Part shown: positions 14,800 through 23,879 of the stretch, one piece after another
How the letters are laid out: each line of letters begins with the position of its first letter
Position numbering within the stretch: position 1 is the stretch's first letter
NCBI GenBank assembly: GCA_001725415.1
Contig: MEGH01000030.1
Span: 1-62,693 of the forward strand
Source of the DNA: Pseudonocardia sp. SCN 73-27
Lineage (GTDB): Bacteria; Actinomycetota; Actinomycetes; Mycobacteriales; Pseudonocardiaceae
Direction of reading: 5' to 3'
Length of the DNA: 62,693 bases
The notes under the pieces: generated by a model
What the model saw: the letters and a program-made list of their open reading frames with translations, nothing else
Databases searched by the model: none
Told to the model about the DNA's origin: nothing
Program-made: the position numbers and the translations under genes

Positions 14800-15957
14800 G
14801 TGCGCGTCGCGATCGTGTCCGAGTGTTTCCTGCCGGTCGTCAACGGTGTCACGAACTCGGTGCTGAGGGTGCTGGAGCACCTGGCCGAGAACGGGCACGA
14901 GGCCCTCGTCATCGCCCCCGGCACCGGGGAGACGACCCGTCACGGGGACGTCGAGGTCGTGCGGGTGCCCGCGGTGGAGCTGCCCGTCGTCAACTCGATG
15001 CCGGTGGGGGTGCCGAGCAGGCGCATCCTCACGGCGCTGCGTCGGTTCGCCCCGGACGTGGTCCACCTGGCGGCGCCGTTCGTCGTGGGTGCGCGTGGGC
15101 TGGCGGCGGCCCGCCGGCTCGACATCCCGACGGTCGCCGTCTACCAGACCGACGTCGCCGGGTTCGCGTCGTCGTACGGGCTGGGGCTGACGGCGCGGGC
15201 GGCATGGCGGTGGACGTGCCGGCTGCACACGCAGGCCGACCGCACGCTGGCTCCGTCGAGCTGGGCGACGGAGGCGTTGCGCGAGCGGGGGGTGCCGCGG
15301 GTGCACCAGTGGGCGCGGGGCGTCGACACCAGCCGGTTCACGCCGTCGAAGCGGTCGGCGCGCCGGCGCGAGGAGCTGGCGCCGGACGGGGAGATCCTCG
15401 TCGGGTACGTGGGCAGGCTGGCCCCGGAGAAGCAGGTGGAACGCCTCGCGGCCCTTGCGGGTCTGCCCGGAATCAGGGTTGTGATCGTGGGGTCGGGGCC
15501 GAGTGAGGAGCGGCTGCGGGCGACGTTGCCGGGTGCGGCGATGCTCGGGTTCCGCGGTGGCGACGAGCTCGCCGAGATCTACGCGTCGCTGGACGTGTTC
15601 GTGCACACGGGTCCGTCGGAGACGTTCTGCCAGGCGGTGCAGGAGGCGTTGGCGTCGGGGCTGCCGGTGGTGGCGCCGGACGCGGGCGGCCCGCGCGACC
15701 TGGTGCTCCCCGGGCGGACGGGGATGCTGGTGCCGCCGCGGCCCGATGGCACGGATGCGGGCGACCCGGCGGCCGATGAGGCGGACGCGGTGCTGCGCTC
15801 GGCCGTGGAGACGTTGTGCGAGAGGGAGTTGCGGGCCGAGTACGGGGCGGCGGCGCGCCGGTCGGTGCTGCGCCGCACGTGGTCGACGGTGTGCGACGAG
15901 CTGCTGGCGCACTACTCCGACGTCGTCGGGGCGGCCGCCGACCGACGGGCTGCCTGA
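14800..15957 (+). CDS. GT4 glycosyltransferase, MgtA/PimB-like mannosyltransferase
   Basis: 385-residue GT-B enzyme. N-terminal [19 protein letters not shown] is characteristic of the GDP-mannose-dependent MgtA/PimB'-like subgroup; the donor domain has [48 protein letters not shown] and [11 protein letters not shown] (the E-x7-E region). In actinobacteria such enzymes mannosylate glycolipid precursors at the inner membrane face. The GTG at 14800 follows AGGGAGG at 14786-14792; the upstream in-frame ATG at 14689 has no site. It is followed after one base by a second glycosyltransferase, so the two are co-translated and probably act in one glycan or glycolipid pathway. Confidence 0.88.
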
Positions 15958-19393: not shown

Positions 19394-20269
19394 ATGACCG
19401 AACGTACGGGTCCCGGCGGAACCGCCGGCACCTCCAAGGACGACAAGGGCGGTGCGGAGCCGACCGGCGGCGAGCAGTCGTCGGCCGAGCGCAGCGGCCC
19501 CGACCACGAGGAGCACGCCGCCAACGGCGGTACCGCGCCCGAGCAGGGCGAGGGCGAGCTCGCGGGTCTGGGCGACCAGGCCGTCGAGGGCGGCACCCGC
19601 CCGGCCCCCGCAGGCCGTACGCGCGAAGGCATGTTCGGTGTCCGCGGCAGCGGCGACACGTCGGGCTTCAGCGGCCTGCGGCTGCCCGCCTACGTCCCCG
19701 CGCCGGCCGAGCGGCCCTTCGGCGGCTGGTTCGACGACGTCGTCGACGACCTGGTCGCGGCGCTCGACGAGCGCGGTACCCGCGGCGCGATCCAGCAGGT
19801 CACGATCGACCGCGACGAGCTCACCCTCTACATCGCGGCCGACGAGATCCTGAACGTCTGCCGGACCATGCGCGACGACGCGTCGCTGCGCTTCGAGCTG
19901 TGCTCGGCGGTGTCGGCGGTCGACTACGGGGTCGATGTGCCGCAGCGCATGCACGTCGTCTACCACCTGCTGTCGATGACCTACCGCAAGCGCATCCGGC
20001 TCGAGGTCGCCCTCGACTGGGACGGCGGCGAGGCCAACCCGCACGTGCCCAGCGTCGTCGAGGTCTACCCGACGGCCGACTGGCACGAGCGCGAGACCTG
20101 GGACATGTTCGGGATCGTCTTCGACGGCCACCCCGCGCTGACCCGGATCCTCATGCCGGACGACTGGGACGGCCACCCCCAGCGCAAGGACTACCCCCTC
20201 GGCGGAATCCCCGTGGAGTACAAGGGCGCGGAGATCCCGCCGCCAGATGAGCGGAGGGCCTACTCGTGA
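19394..20269 (+). CDS. nuoC: NADH-quinone oxidoreductase subunit C with long acidic N-terminal extension
   Basis: 291 residues. The C-terminal ~200 form the 30-kDa subunit domain ([62 protein letters not shown]). It is a peripheral-arm subunit without cofactors, next to NuoD and the N2 cluster. The first ~80 residues are Gly/Glu/Ser-rich and probably disordered, longer than in most bacteria. It ends in a 4-base GTGA overlap with nuoD. Confidence 0.95.
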
Positions 20270-21585
20270 CGACCCCCGAGACCGACCTCTACGCCCCGGA
20301 ACGCGAGACCACCGAGGGCACGGTCTACACGGTCACCGGTGGCGACTGGGACTCGATCGTCGACTCCGAGCACGACGACCGCATCGTCATCAACATGGGC
20401 CCGCAGCACCCGTCGACGCACGGCGTGCTCCGGCTCGTCCTCGAGCTCGAGGGTGAGACGGTCACGCAGGCCCGTTCGGTGATCGGCTACCTGCACACCG
20501 GTATCGAGAAGAACTGCGAGTACCGGACGTGGACCCAAGGCGTCACGTTCGTGACCCGTGCCGACTATCTGGCGCCGCTGTTCAACGAGGCCGCGTACGT
20601 CAAGGGCGTCGAGAAGCTGCTGGGCATCGAGGCCCCGGAGCGCGCGCAGGTCATCCGCGTGATGCTCATGGAGATCAACCGCATCGGCTCGCACCTGGTG
20701 TGCCTGGCCACCGGCGGTATGGAGCTCGGCGCGCTGACCGGTATGACCGCCGGTTTCCGTGAGCGCGAGGAGGTGCTCCACCTGCTGGAGTACCTGACCG
20801 GGCTGCGGATGAACCACGCGTTCTTCCGGCCGGGTGGGCTCGCGCAGGACCTGCCGGAGGACTGGCGGGAGAAGATCGACGAGTTCATCAAGGTCTTCGA
20901 CGAGCGCCTCGGCGACTACGACAAGCTCCTCACGGGCCAGCCGATCTGGAAGCAGCGCCTCGAGGGTGTCGGCTACCTGCCGATCGACGGCTGCCTCGCG
21001 CTCGGCGCGACCGGCCCGATCCTGCGGTCGGCCGGCCTCGCGTGGGATCAGCGCGTGGTCGAGCCCTACTGGGGCTACGAGACCTACGACTTCGAGGTGC
21101 CCACCGAGACGGGTGCCGACTGCTACTCGCGCTACCTGGTGCGGGTCGCGGAGATCCACGAGTCGCTCAAGATCATCAAGCAGGCCGCCGACCGGCTCGA
21201 GCCGGGACCGGTCATGGTCGAGGACCGCAAGGTCGCGTGGCCCGCGCAGCTGTCGATCGGGTCGGACGGCATGGGCAACACGCTCGAGCACGTCCGCAAG
21301 ATCATGGGTCAGTCGATGGAGTCGCTGATCCACCACTTCAAGCTGGTCACCGAGGGCTTCCACGTCCCGGCGGGGCAGGTCTACACGTGCGTCGAGTCGC
21401 CCCGCGGCGAGCTCGGCGTGCACCTGGTCTCCGACGGCGGTACCCGCCCGGTGCGCGTGCACATGCGCGAGCCCAGCTTCGTCAACCTGCAGACCATGCC
21501 CGCCATGAGCGAGGGCGGCATGGTCGCCGACGTCATCGCGGCCGTCGCGTCGATCGACCCGGTGATGGGGGGTGTGGACCGATGA
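20266..21585 (+). CDS. nuoD: NADH-quinone oxidoreductase subunit D
   Basis: 439 residues, the 49-kDa subunit that forms the quinone pocket with NuoB. Signatures: [15 protein letters not shown] with the quinone-site His, [33 protein letters not shown], and the C-terminal [26 protein letters not shown]. The GTG start overlaps the nuoC stop. Its own stop overlaps the ATG of micro-ORF 1 (ATGA, 21582-21585). Confidence 0.97.
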
Positions 21586-21659
21586 GCGAGCTTGCGAGCG
21601 AGTCGACGTCACAGCGCTTGGAGGCTTCGTCGACCGAGCGAAGCGAGGTCGTGCGATGA
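21582..21659 (+). CDS. Micro-ORF 1, 25 residues (MSELASE...), bridging nuoD and nuoE
   Basis: 26 codons including stop. The ATG overlaps the nuoD stop in ATGA, and its own TGA overlaps the nuoE ATG in a second ATGA 74 bases later. The peptide begins [12 protein letters not shown] and ends TERSEVVR. A second unit of exactly the same length, with related sequence, lies between nuoE and nuoF. The first 17 bases are nearly identical in both (ATGAGCGAGCT[T/C]GCGAG). Whether the peptide matters, or only keeps ribosomes coupled across an inserted repeat, is unknown. Confidence 0.55.
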
Positions 21660-22477
21660 CACTGCCCGAGGGCAACCCGGAGATGAACAGCGCCGAGGTG
21701 ACCGGGCCCGACGAGGTGGTCTGGCATCCCGAGGCCACCGAGGGACCGATCGCGTCGCCGGCGTTCGACGAGGTGACGCGCCAGCGCGCCAAGGAGATCA
21801 TCGCGCGCTACCCGCAGTCGCGCTCGGCGCTGCTGCCGATGCTGCACCTGGTGCAGTCGGTGGAGAACCACGTCAGCCAGGCCGGCATCCGGTTCTGCTC
21901 GGAGATGTTGGAGATCACGACGGCAGAGGTCTCGGCCGTCGCGACCTTCTACACGATGTACAAGCGCAACCCGTGCGGTGAGCACCTGGTCAGCGTCTGC
22001 ACCAACACCCTGTGTGCCGCGATGGGGGGCGACGCGATCTACGCCCGGCTGCAGGACAAGCTGGGCAGCGAGGGCCGCCCGCTGGGCCACGAGGAGACCG
22101 CCGGCGAGCCCGGCACCCCCGGCTCGATCACCCTCGAGCACGCGGAGTGCCTTGCGGCGTGCGACCTCGCGCCGGTCATCCAGGTCAACTACGAGTACTT
22201 CGACAACCAGTCGGTCGACTCGGCCGAGGAGCTGGTCGACGCGCTGCGCCGCGGCGAGAAGCCGCACCCCACGCGGGGTGCCCCGCTGACCGATCTGCGC
22301 ACCGTCGAGCTCGAGCTGGCCGGGTTCCACCCCGACCTGGCCGCGGTGGCCGAGGGCCCGTCGATCGCGCCCGAGACCGTCCGCGGCGCCGTTCTGGCCG
22401 ACGAGCGCGGCTGGACGGCACCCGCCCGCCCCGCCGAGCACCCCGCGCTGCCGCCGCTTCCGGAGGCGAAGCCATGA
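21656..22477 (+). CDS. nuoE: NADH-quinone oxidoreductase subunit E
   Basis: 273 residues, the 24-kDa thioredoxin-like subunit with the off-path 2Fe-2S cluster N1a. Ligands Cys115 and Cys120 (SVCTNTLC), Cys165 and Cys169 (ECLAAC). A C-terminal extension of ~70 residues rich in Pro/Ala follows the core domain. The ATG at 21656 is preferred over an upstream frame start at 21572 because it lies in the ATGA overlap with micro-ORF 1. Confidence 0.95.
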   Translation: MTLPEGNPEMNSAEVTGPDEVVWHPEATEGPIASPAFDEVTRQRAKEIIARYPQSRSALLPMLHLVQSVENHVSQAGIRFCSEMLEITTAEVSAVATFYTMYKRNPCGEHLVSVCTNTLCAAMGGDAIYARLQDKLGSEGRPLGHEETAGEPGTPGSITLEHAECLAACDLAPVIQVNYEYFDNQSVDSAEELVDALRRGEKPHPTRGAPLTDLRTVELELAGFHPDLAAVAEGPSIAPETVRGAVLADERGWTAPARPAEHPALPPLPEAKP

Positions 22478-22551
22478 GCGAGCTCGCGAGCGAATTGTCG
22501 ACACAGCGACCGCGGGCAGTGCTGAGCTCGCGCAGCGAGGGAATGCAATGA
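22474..22551 (+). CDS. Micro-ORF 2, 25 residues (MSELASE...), bridging nuoE and nuoF
   Basis: Same architecture as micro-ORF 1: the ATG overlaps the nuoE TGA, and its TGA at 22549-22551 overlaps the nuoF ATG at 22548, again 74 bases between the two ATGA motifs. The peptide begins MSELASELSTQR and ends SSRSEGMQ. Start, middle (TQR/SQR) and end (RSE) resemble copy 1, while the intervening bases have diverged. Confidence 0.55.
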   Translation: MSELASELSTQRPRAVLSSRSEGMQ

Positions 22552-23879
22552 CCGAGCCCACCCGTCCCGATCCGCTGACCCCGGTGCTGACGCGCCGCTG
22601 GCAGCTCGACCGGTCGTGGTCGATCGACACCTACGAGCGCACCGACGGCTACACCGCGCTGCGTACCGCCCTGGCCGCCCAGCCCGACCAGCTGATCACG
22701 CTGGTGAAGGACTCGGGTCTGCGCGGGCGTGGCGGCGCGGGGTTCCCGACGGGGATGAAGTGGTCGTTCATCCCGCAGGGCCCCACCGGTGCCGGCGCGA
22801 AGCCGAAGTACCTGGTGATCAACGCCGACGAGGGCGAGCCGGGTACCTGCAAGGACATCCCGACGATGATGGCCGACCCGCACTCGTTGATCGAGGGTTG
22901 CATCATCACCAGCTACGCGATCCGCGCGAACTTCTGTGCGATCTACGTGCGCGGTGAGGCGCTGCACTGCATCCGCCGGCTGCGGCAGGCGGTCGCGGAG
23001 GCCTACGCGAAGGGCTACCTGGGCACCGACATCCTCGGTTCCGGGTTCGCGCTCGACATCGTCGTCCACGCCGGCGCGGGCGCCTACATCTGCGGCGAGG
23101 AGACGGCGCTGCTGGACTCGCTGGAGGGCCGCCGTGGCCAGCCGCGGCTCAAGCCCCCGTTCCCGGCGACGTCGGGTCTGTACGCCTCGCCGACGGTGGT
23201 GAACAACGTGGAGACGATCGCGTCGGTGCCCGACATCGTCTCCGGCGGTAGTGACTGGTTCCGGTCGATGGGTACGGAGAAGAGCCCGGGCCCGAAGATC
23301 TACTCGCTGTCCGGACACGTGGAGCGTCCCGGCCAGTACGAGGCCCCGCTCGGGGTGACGTTGCGTGAGCTGCTGGAGCTGGCCGGCGGCATGAAGGACG
23401 GCATCCCGCTGAAGTTCTGGACCCCGGGTGGGTCGTCGACCCCGTTGTTCACCGCCGAGCACCTGGACGTCCCGCTGGACTTCGAGGGTGCGGCGGCGGC
23501 CGGGTCGATGCTCGGCACGACCGCGGTGCAGATCTTCAACGAGACCGTGTCGGTGCCGTGGGCGGTCATGAAGTGGACCGAGTTCTACAAGCACGAGAGC
23601 TGCGGCAAGTGCACGCCGTGCCGGGAGGGGACCTACTGGCTGGTCCAGATCCTCGAACGCATGGTGCACGGTCGGGGCACGGTCGAGGACGTCGAGACGA
23701 TGCTCGACATCTGCGACAACATCCTGGGCCGCTCCTTCTGCGCGCTCGGCGACGGCGCGACCAGCCCCATCACCAGTGCGATCAAGTACTTCCGCCAGGA
23801 GTTCCTCGACCTGATCGCCGAACAGCCGGCGGTCGCGCGACCGGACCAGCTGGCCCAGATGACTGGAGCGAGCGCGTGA
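22548..23879 (+). CDS. nuoF: NADH-quinone oxidoreductase subunit F
   Basis: 443 residues; the NADH-oxidising subunit with FMN and 4Fe-4S cluster N3. Glycine-rich nucleotide/FMN loop [13 protein letters not shown] (~60-72), [31 protein letters not shown], and the N3 ligands in [15 protein letters not shown] plus a later Cys (SFCALGDGA). GTGA overlap with nuoG at its 3' end. Confidence 0.97.

Follow-up and report, generated by a model that had tools for sequence, protein, structure and literature searches.

A dispersed repeat at gene starts in Pseudonocardiaceae carries a base that covaries with its target

What are the two very short open reading frames (ORFs) that separate nuoD from nuoE and nuoE from nuoF in Pseudonocardia sp. 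SCN 73-27, and how did they come to lie there? We analysed the 62,693-nucleotide stretch that holds them (contig MEGH01000030.1 of assembly GCA_001725415.1; hereafter, the window). Both junctions hold a micro-ORF of 78 bases, coding for 25 amino acids, with ATGA at both ends, and the start-to-start distance is 74 bases for micro-ORF 1 and for micro-ORF 2; an earlier note on this DNA, which had described two 78-base, 25-residue ORFs with ATGA overlaps 74 bases apart, was exact about this layout. Pfam assigns nuoD to the 49 kDa subunit, nuoE to the thioredoxin-like 2Fe-2S subunit and nuoF to the 51 kDa subunit. We found that the micro-ORFs are copies of a dispersed, patchy and sometimes tandem repeat, and that base 22, counted from the first base (N1) of the NTGA on the left of the repeat, covaries with that first base. 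The features are listed here, with L, G and g numbers as our handles throughout.

20266..21585, plus strand: nuoD, the upstream neighbour; its stop TGA (21583-21585) is part of the target ATGA.
21582..21659, plus strand: repeat copy 1 with its 25-codon micro-ORF, both ATGA included (from the sequence, genome matches and empty sites).
21582..21585, plus strand: left ATGA of copy 1, read as the pre-existing target (nuoD stop/start); first base A at 21582.
21586..21603, plus strand: left end of copy 1; base 22 is T at 21603 and covaries with target base 21582.
21631..21651, plus strand: right-end hairpin of copy 1, CGACC-GA-GC-GAA-GC-GA-GGTCG (folding; paired change in L127).
21656..22477, plus strand: nuoE; its ATG (21656) lies in the right-hand ATGA of copy 1 and its stop (22475-22477) in the left ATGA of copy 2.
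22474..22551, plus strand: repeat copy 2 with its 25-codon micro-ORF; common only to L120 among the 29 genomes of the genus read at nuoE/nuoF.
22474..22495, plus strand: target ATGA on the left, with the adjoining left end of copy 2; base 22 (T at 22495) matches the first base (A at 22474).
22527..22539, plus strand: right-end hairpin of copy 2, CTCGC-GCA-GCGAG (folding).
22548..23879, plus strand: nuoF; its start lies in the right-hand ATGA of copy 2 (Pfam).

The 74-base units of the two copies are identical at 51 of 74 positions, including 21 of the 24 within the head; beyond the head 30 of 50 positions agree, against a shuffled mean of 14.1 (0 of 2000 shuffles reached the observed value). 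The head, GAGCGAGCTNGCGAGCGA, is matched 8 times in the 6.95 Mb genome when one mismatch is allowed, 7 of them exactly, and its reversed control 0 times; a 20-base head at up to three mismatches gave 12 matches versus 1 for the control. Outside the window these copies form a tandem pair 77 bases apart (contig 21), a triple (contig 23) and a single copy (contig 26). By its NuoF, whose likeness is to Crossiella and a Pseudonocardiales MAG at 82%, the family is probably Pseudonocardiaceae; within it, exact heads were present in 43 of 150 genomes and 20 of 46 genera, with up to 56 copies in the richest genome, and the reversed control gave 0 in 150; summed over the 43 genomes there were 339 exact heads, part of whose loci were fetched for the analyses below. 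Of the 33 genomes to which named loci belong, 8 matched with no more than one mismatch, exact matches being seen only in Amycolatopsis alkalitolerans (2 copies), and none of four named mycobacterial genomes searched had an exact match to this head. A stricter pattern (TT loop and 3′ A) matched in 3 of 394 genomes across the class, namely the genome of the window and two others, both from a single genus that lies outside the window's order. Carriage by plasmids or phages was rejected as a route of spread: one query against plasmids returned only two partial matches of 26 and 22 bases (E 0.6 and 0.2), and one query against phages returned no match.

To see how copies sit at gene junctions we used 128 distinct head matches, of which 122 passed a narrower pattern that asks for TGA in front of the head and for A or G at base 21. 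Eighteen of these were set aside as tandem-internal because a copy or right-end motif lay just upstream, leaving 104 non-tandem copies; the rule is rough, and degenerate arrays such as L151 stay among the 104. A micro-ORF of fewer than 60 codons was found in 87 of the 104, with lengths from 20 to 50 codons (25 or 26 in 63 of the 87), and 80 of these end in ATGA or GTGA. Since the repeat itself ends in NTGA, the stop/start overlap survives in those 80 copies. The unit mostly measures 74 or 77 bases from start to start. Judged by third-position GC, the upstream coding frame was the one ending in the left TGA in 84 of 104 copies, and coding downstream followed the frame of the right NTG in 74 of 87; one in three would be expected by chance. 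When frames were called without regard to the stop, 79 copies divided into 57 coupled, 11 in frame and 11 neither, the other 25 of the 104 being not callable. On these sequence criteria the coupled arrangement is the rule, with exceptions. The frame runs on in 17 of the 104, several of which read, by translation only, like in-frame fusions to the downstream gene. Shortened copies at L090, L107, L108, L109 and L157 apparently supply the N-terminus MSELASE or VSELASE of the downstream gene, again as judged by translation only.

Orthologous sites with and without the repeat indicate how it entered. NuoE was located in 59 of 60 genomes of the window's genus, and we read 30 nuoE loci, the window's own among them. 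The nuoD/nuoE junction is a plain 4-base overlap (ATGA or GTGA) in 16, holds an insert in 12 and was not classed in 2. Seven of the inserts are gaps of 55-70 bases with a recognisable head and five are gaps of 31-70 bases without one; all 12 gaps are 1 mod 3 in length, which preserves the frame in the shortened forms too. In L122, L124 and L129 a 31-base gap lies between GTGA/ATGA and ATGA, with a 12-codon open frame, and may be a remnant of the repeat. On the NuoDEF tree, filled and empty states are scattered, requiring 8 changes, at least 5 of them forced by well-supported branches (shuffled mean, 9.3). L121, with 93% NuoE identity, is empty at nuoD/nuoE and reads ATGA, and the window and L120 are filled; at nuoE/nuoF these two are the only ones with the unit. 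The earlier note had suggested comparing junctions with and without the unit in relatives: both states are seen, other junctions do carry the unit, and the frame is kept in every nuoD/nuoE insert.

A similar search was made in genus g19, where ten joined flanks were looked for in 7 genomes and 4-base empty orthologs were obtained with flanks 79-98% identical. L219 and L225 read ATGA..GTGA, and their four 4-base empty sites without scars (L283, L284, L294 and L292) all read ATGA. Empty sites read GTGA in four of four cases for L116, in the three of 4 bases for L221 (three others are longer) and in the single 4-base site for L218; no 4-base empty site was obtained for L224, and no ortholog was read for L222. 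Because it is present already in empty sites, the left N belongs to the target. Insertion 3′ of a pre-existing NTGA at a start codon is thus shown by the sequence comparisons, and the view of the earlier note, that a repeat had entered an existing ATGA overlap while keeping an open frame, is borne out by the empty orthologous sites and by the many other junctions that carry the unit. At L219 and L225, compared with L283, L284 and L292, insertion turns the downstream start codon from ATG into GTG, the right NTGA there being the element's. L282 keeps an apparent scar, CAGCAGTGA of the right end left at an otherwise empty site, with GGTG where a deletion would have joined; L303 perhaps also keeps the last right-end bases (GCAGTGA). 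These scars suggest that copies are also lost.

The main result concerns the target's first base and base 22. The 104 non-tandem copies read A-T in 60 cases and G-C in 36 (A-C 3, G-T 3, C-C 1, A-A 1), so that the two bases pair in 96; on the 102 copies with A or G and T or C, Fisher's test gave p = 1.5e-20, although kinship among copies makes such covariation p-values too small by an undefined amount. Among the position pairs scanned, 1 and 22 shared 0.65 bits of mutual information and the next best pair 0.20. Removal of like left flanks left 93 sites with A-T in 52, G-C in 33 and the other combinations in 3, 3, 1 and 1, where 47.4 pairs would be expected by chance. Sixteen copies from further genomes (G361, G329 and A. 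alkalitolerans) behaved alike (A-T 7, G-C 7, A-C 1, A-A 1), with 14 pairing. Both classes occur within single genomes: G148 has 7 A-T, 8 G-C and 5 other copies, G109 has 2 and 5, and G147 has 15 and 2. In g31, moreover, the nearest neighbour by bases 25-70 belongs to the other class for 8 of 20 copies, that is, the classes interleave. The 18 tandem-internal copies read A-T 11, C-C 3, A-C 2, G-T 1 and G-A 1, 7 of them mismatched. As the target's first base precedes insertion, the match means either a preference at insertion or later upkeep. The weaker match inside tandem arrays speaks for the former, and one orthologous pair that differs at both bases (L219 and L300) for the latter.

A differently built repeat follows the same rule. 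It was met at the nuoD/nuoE junction of Mycobacterium yunnanensis (L017), and its core, TGAGCGCTNGCGCGAA, was present in 29 of 41 Mycobacterium-group genomes, where the reversed control matched once overall. Among the matches listed, to which the following counts refer, 142 copies entered the analysis, 89 of them non-tandem. In these 89 the base two positions before the start codon (-2) and base +20 read C-G in 53, T-A in 21, G-C in 9, T-G in 3, C-T in 2 and G-G in 1; they pair in 83 of 89 and share 1.02 bits, the next best being 0.27. After removal of like flanks, 77 of 83 pair versus 40.3 expected. The G237 and G272 stretches pair in 18 of 18 and 19 of 19 copies, respectively. Inside arrays, where the flank is often the element's own end, 33 of 53 pair; of the 20 that do not, 10 are C-A. 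The frame call ignoring the stop gave 32 coupled, 12 in frame and 9 neither among 53 copies (36 of the 89 not callable). Both repeats can be drawn as one hairpin design, in which GC pairs alternate with tandem G.A, the loop has two bases and the outer pair involves a host base. L262, L265, L280 and L359 have a nuoD-like left flank, which places the mycobacterial repeat at nuoD/nuoE there too; from the sequences, two repeat families seem to have entered at this one junction, each in its own bacterial group. A search of the 41 Mycobacterium-group genomes with a CGAGC-GNA-GCGAG hairpin was set aside, since it matched in all 41, its control in many, and the 31 places examined mostly lacked paired flanks. 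Another short tandem repeat that carries ATGA was noted at L412 (G262 contig 3, about 14862-14928), with three CGAGCGGAGCGAG hairpins 27 bases apart, each followed by TGAATGA.

The right end behaves differently from the left. In the 80 copies that end in ATGA or GTGA the first bases of the left and right tetranucleotides read A..A in 44, G..G in 21, G..A in 9 and A..G in 6. In g27 the right first base is A in 23 of 23 copies, and in g19 it is G in 11 of 11, irrespective of the left base; there it belongs to the element. Hence the suggestion that insertion had duplicated the ATGA stands only in part: the repeat was inserted, but in g27 and g19 the right NTGA is no simple duplicate of the left one. 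The right hairpin covaries as well. In 23 distinct 25-codon copies of g31 (tandem ones included), arm pairs 50-71 and 51-70 are Watson-Crick in 20 and 19 copies, against shuffled expectations of 8.3 and 9.6, a level reached in 0 of 2000 shuffles. Pair 52-69, formed in 14 of 23, does no better than its shuffles and does not covary; a single one of the 23 copies pairs at 53-68, and the remaining pairs are invariant. The nuoD/nuoE copies themselves show a paired change, from CGACC/GGTCG in L119 to CGGCC/GGCCG in L127.

Start-codon insertion has a precedent. Mycobacterial interspersed repetitive units (MIRUs; Supply et al. 1997, cited via PMC12548453 and PMC2734929) are described in PMC12548453 as short, apparently mobile repeats at start codons whose internal ORF is coupled to the gene at -4 spacing. 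The earlier note's opinion that a coupling-neutral repeat would be unusual does not hold against this description. The present repeat shares with MIRUs its occurrence as a short interspersed repeat at many loci, its tandem copies and arrays (L081, L083, L117), and a length of 2 mod 3, which the MIRU lengths of 77 and 53 given in PMC4213456 have in common with the usual units here (74 and 77). It also shares insertion at start codons with an internal ORF, seen here in the 80 of 104 non-tandem copies that end in ATGA or GTGA and in the empty sites. Its host range seems to differ: MIRUs are reported from mycobacteria, and the senX3-regX3 ones from no species beyond M. leprae and the M. tuberculosis complex. 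Compared by description, the repeat appears to work like a MIRU, which is not to state that it is one; the mycobacterial core differs. The accessible parts of the MIRU literature mention no target-matching base and offer no explanation of how MIRU-like repeats spread. It is the covariation of base 22 that is new here, start-codon insertion having been described for MIRUs already. The literature we searched (with head, peptide and core strings, which returned one false match) contained neither the repeat family nor the matching base, but most subscription papers lay outside it, so that their unpublished status is unproven.

Other short repeats are more distant. Repetitive extragenic palindromic (REP) sequences are short, dispersed hairpins whose movement, in single-stranded form, is credited to a Y1 enzyme (the REP-associated tyrosine transposase, RAYT) acting in trans; unlike the present repeat they lie outside genes and keep no reading frame, and no PF01797 match accompanies the repeat in the window's genome or in the four richest. 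Rickettsia palindromic elements are short repeats that stay in frame when inserted in genes, and may be compared with the apparent in-frame fusions described above, but they lie inside coding regions rather than at start codons and belong to another phylum.

How, then, would the repeat choose its site? The target NTGA and the first 18 repeat bases can be drawn as one putative hairpin, with pairs N1-N22 and T2-A21, tandem G.A, GC/GC, tandem G.A, GC/GC and a loop of TT. Tandem sheared G.A pairs are stable. A T-type copy (base 22) would fit ATGA and a C-type copy GTGA, and this fit may act at insertion. The element enters immediately 3′ of an NTGA where a gene starts and where, very often, the preceding one also stops (ATGA or GTGA), and it brings its own terminal NTGA, so that the upstream stop overlaps the micro-ORF start and the micro-ORF stop the downstream start. 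With overlaps at both ends coupling could go on and insertion would be nearly neutral; the insertion and the architecture are seen in the sequences, whereas the coupling is our interpretation of them. Copies may later be amplified in tandem, shrink by multiples of a codon, fuse in frame to the downstream gene or be deleted. The likeliest mechanism is one in which element and target pair with each other at a single-strand DNA stage, as happens in IS608. According to PMC5934647, IS608 chooses its target by pairing with the element, can be re-programmed by changing the element, and inserts 3′ of a tetranucleotide that is kept in the left flank. The hairpin ends, the element's own right cleavage sequence and the kept left tetranucleotide are apparent points of likeness to IS200/IS605 and IS608 in that text; the first base fits a target kept without duplication, as in IS200/IS605, in g19 and g27, and g31 differs. 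The arrangement also differs, since the foot of the left hairpin would in this case be the target itself, with its partner 3′ of the hairpin, and in IS608, by the same source, the guide lies 5′ of it. Moreover, the window's repeat has no gene and no accompanying Y1 transposase. On balance we think it probable, with real room for doubt, that a mobile MIRU-like repeat inserts 3′ of NTGA at gene starts, its peptide idle and its target chosen by element-target pairing as in IS608.

A number of observations weigh against this choice of reading, in addition to the kinship among copies. The left hairpin gets no support from a standard DNA folding model, which returned z = 0.48 and 0.78 for the window's two copies, and 8 of the 104 copies are unpaired at N1 and base 22. 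Some empty sites are not as expected: those of L220 are mixed (ATGA in L297, GTGA in L314), the three of L217 are two bases longer, and that of L223 reads ATGG in L286 and L305. In g31 (among L090-L094 and L149-L183) the first base is the same on the left and on the right in 21 of 26 copies; a right N borne by the element alone does not account for this. Nearest neighbours of the other class are few in g19 (1 of 10) and g27 (3 of 18), where the classes are mostly separate by sequence. L219 (A..T) and L300 (G..C) hold near-identical repeats at one orthologous site and differ at both bases, which looks like upkeep of the pair after insertion. A search for a Y1 (IS200-type, PF01797) transposase found none in the genome of the window, nor in the four of the 150 genomes with most copies (G148, G142, G019 and G074); a Y1 match was found in 7 of 43 genomes with the head versus 24 of 107 without (p = 0.51). 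G147, one of two genomes with 17 copies, has a partial Y1 match. In the Mycobacterium group the core is accompanied by a Y1 match in 8 of 29 genomes, and 2 of the 12 genomes that lack the core have one as well; G262, with the most copies, has none, G272 (41 copies) has 2 and G237 (39) has 9. A Y1 transposase as present mover was rejected, because its presence does not track the repeat.

The main rival holds that the N1-N22 pair is maintained after insertion since the hairpin matters in mRNA or DNA, for example by exposing the start site in coupled translation, and that insertion makes no use of it. The double difference between L219 and L300 at an apparently orthologous insertion speaks for such upkeep, as does the paired change between L119 and L127 in the right hairpin. 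Yet mismatches are common inside arrays (7 of 18 for the window's repeat; 20 of 53 for the mycobacterial one), although the copies lie in the same arrays, and the L219/L300 pair is the only co-change seen among six g19 sites with filled orthologs; we regard this explanation as unlikely, though one to be taken seriously. Alternatively, the covariation could be linkage, two old haplotypes (ATG..T and GTG..C) having spread through gene conversion or through transposition with the first base in tow. In its favour, no more than 21 positions separate the two bases, and the g19 and g27 classes are mostly separate. This is nonetheless improbable, given that the left base is present in empty sites and so is the target's, that the classes interleave in g31, and that the mycobacterial repeat has three pair types with the outer base in host sequence two positions before the start codon.

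A function of the micro-peptides themselves is less probable again. The open frames are kept and conservation of MSELASE is high, among copies that were chosen by their DNA head, but third codon positions are not more variable than first and second ones in g31 (0.306, 0.261 and 0.282 bits for positions 1, 2 and 3; 23 copies) or g27 (0.652, 0.620 and 0.579; 19 copies), and beyond codon 8 the peptides of different genera look unlike. Functional micro-peptides were rejected for want of any sign of peptide selection in these entropies, and the peptide probably does nothing. The earlier note had left selection for coupling and for the peptide side by side; frame and overlap are indeed kept, the peptide is not. 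As for the thought that the junctions are ordinary variable intergenic DNA, alike by chance, the window taken alone gives it some colour (2 matches to an 18-base head at up to three mismatches versus 1.81 expected, not significant by count, both exact), but the reversed control matched in none of 150 genomes where the pattern matched in 43, and the genome-wide matches against a zero control rule it out; we give it next to no credence.

Preference at insertion for a matching target leads to a broader proposal, which we hold tentatively and with slightly more doubt than confidence. Gene-less mobile hairpins of actinobacteria would find start codons by base pairing, the host's stop/start tetranucleotide serving as the foot of the hairpin, and a single element base would decide between host bases: A or G of the start codon and, for the mycobacterial repeat, C, T or G at position -2. 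The element would be neutral by design, because its target is the coupling signal itself and it ends in another. With no IS200-type transposase, its mover would be some other single-strand DNA enzyme or a host process. The matching base is a concrete, testable rule that links a repeat to its site and is seen in two separately built repeat families. It suggests a natural retargeting of the kind engineered in IS608. The repeat is also a case of a mobile element that alters start codons (at L219 and L225, ATG to GTG) and that, in working operons, apparently provides N-termini.

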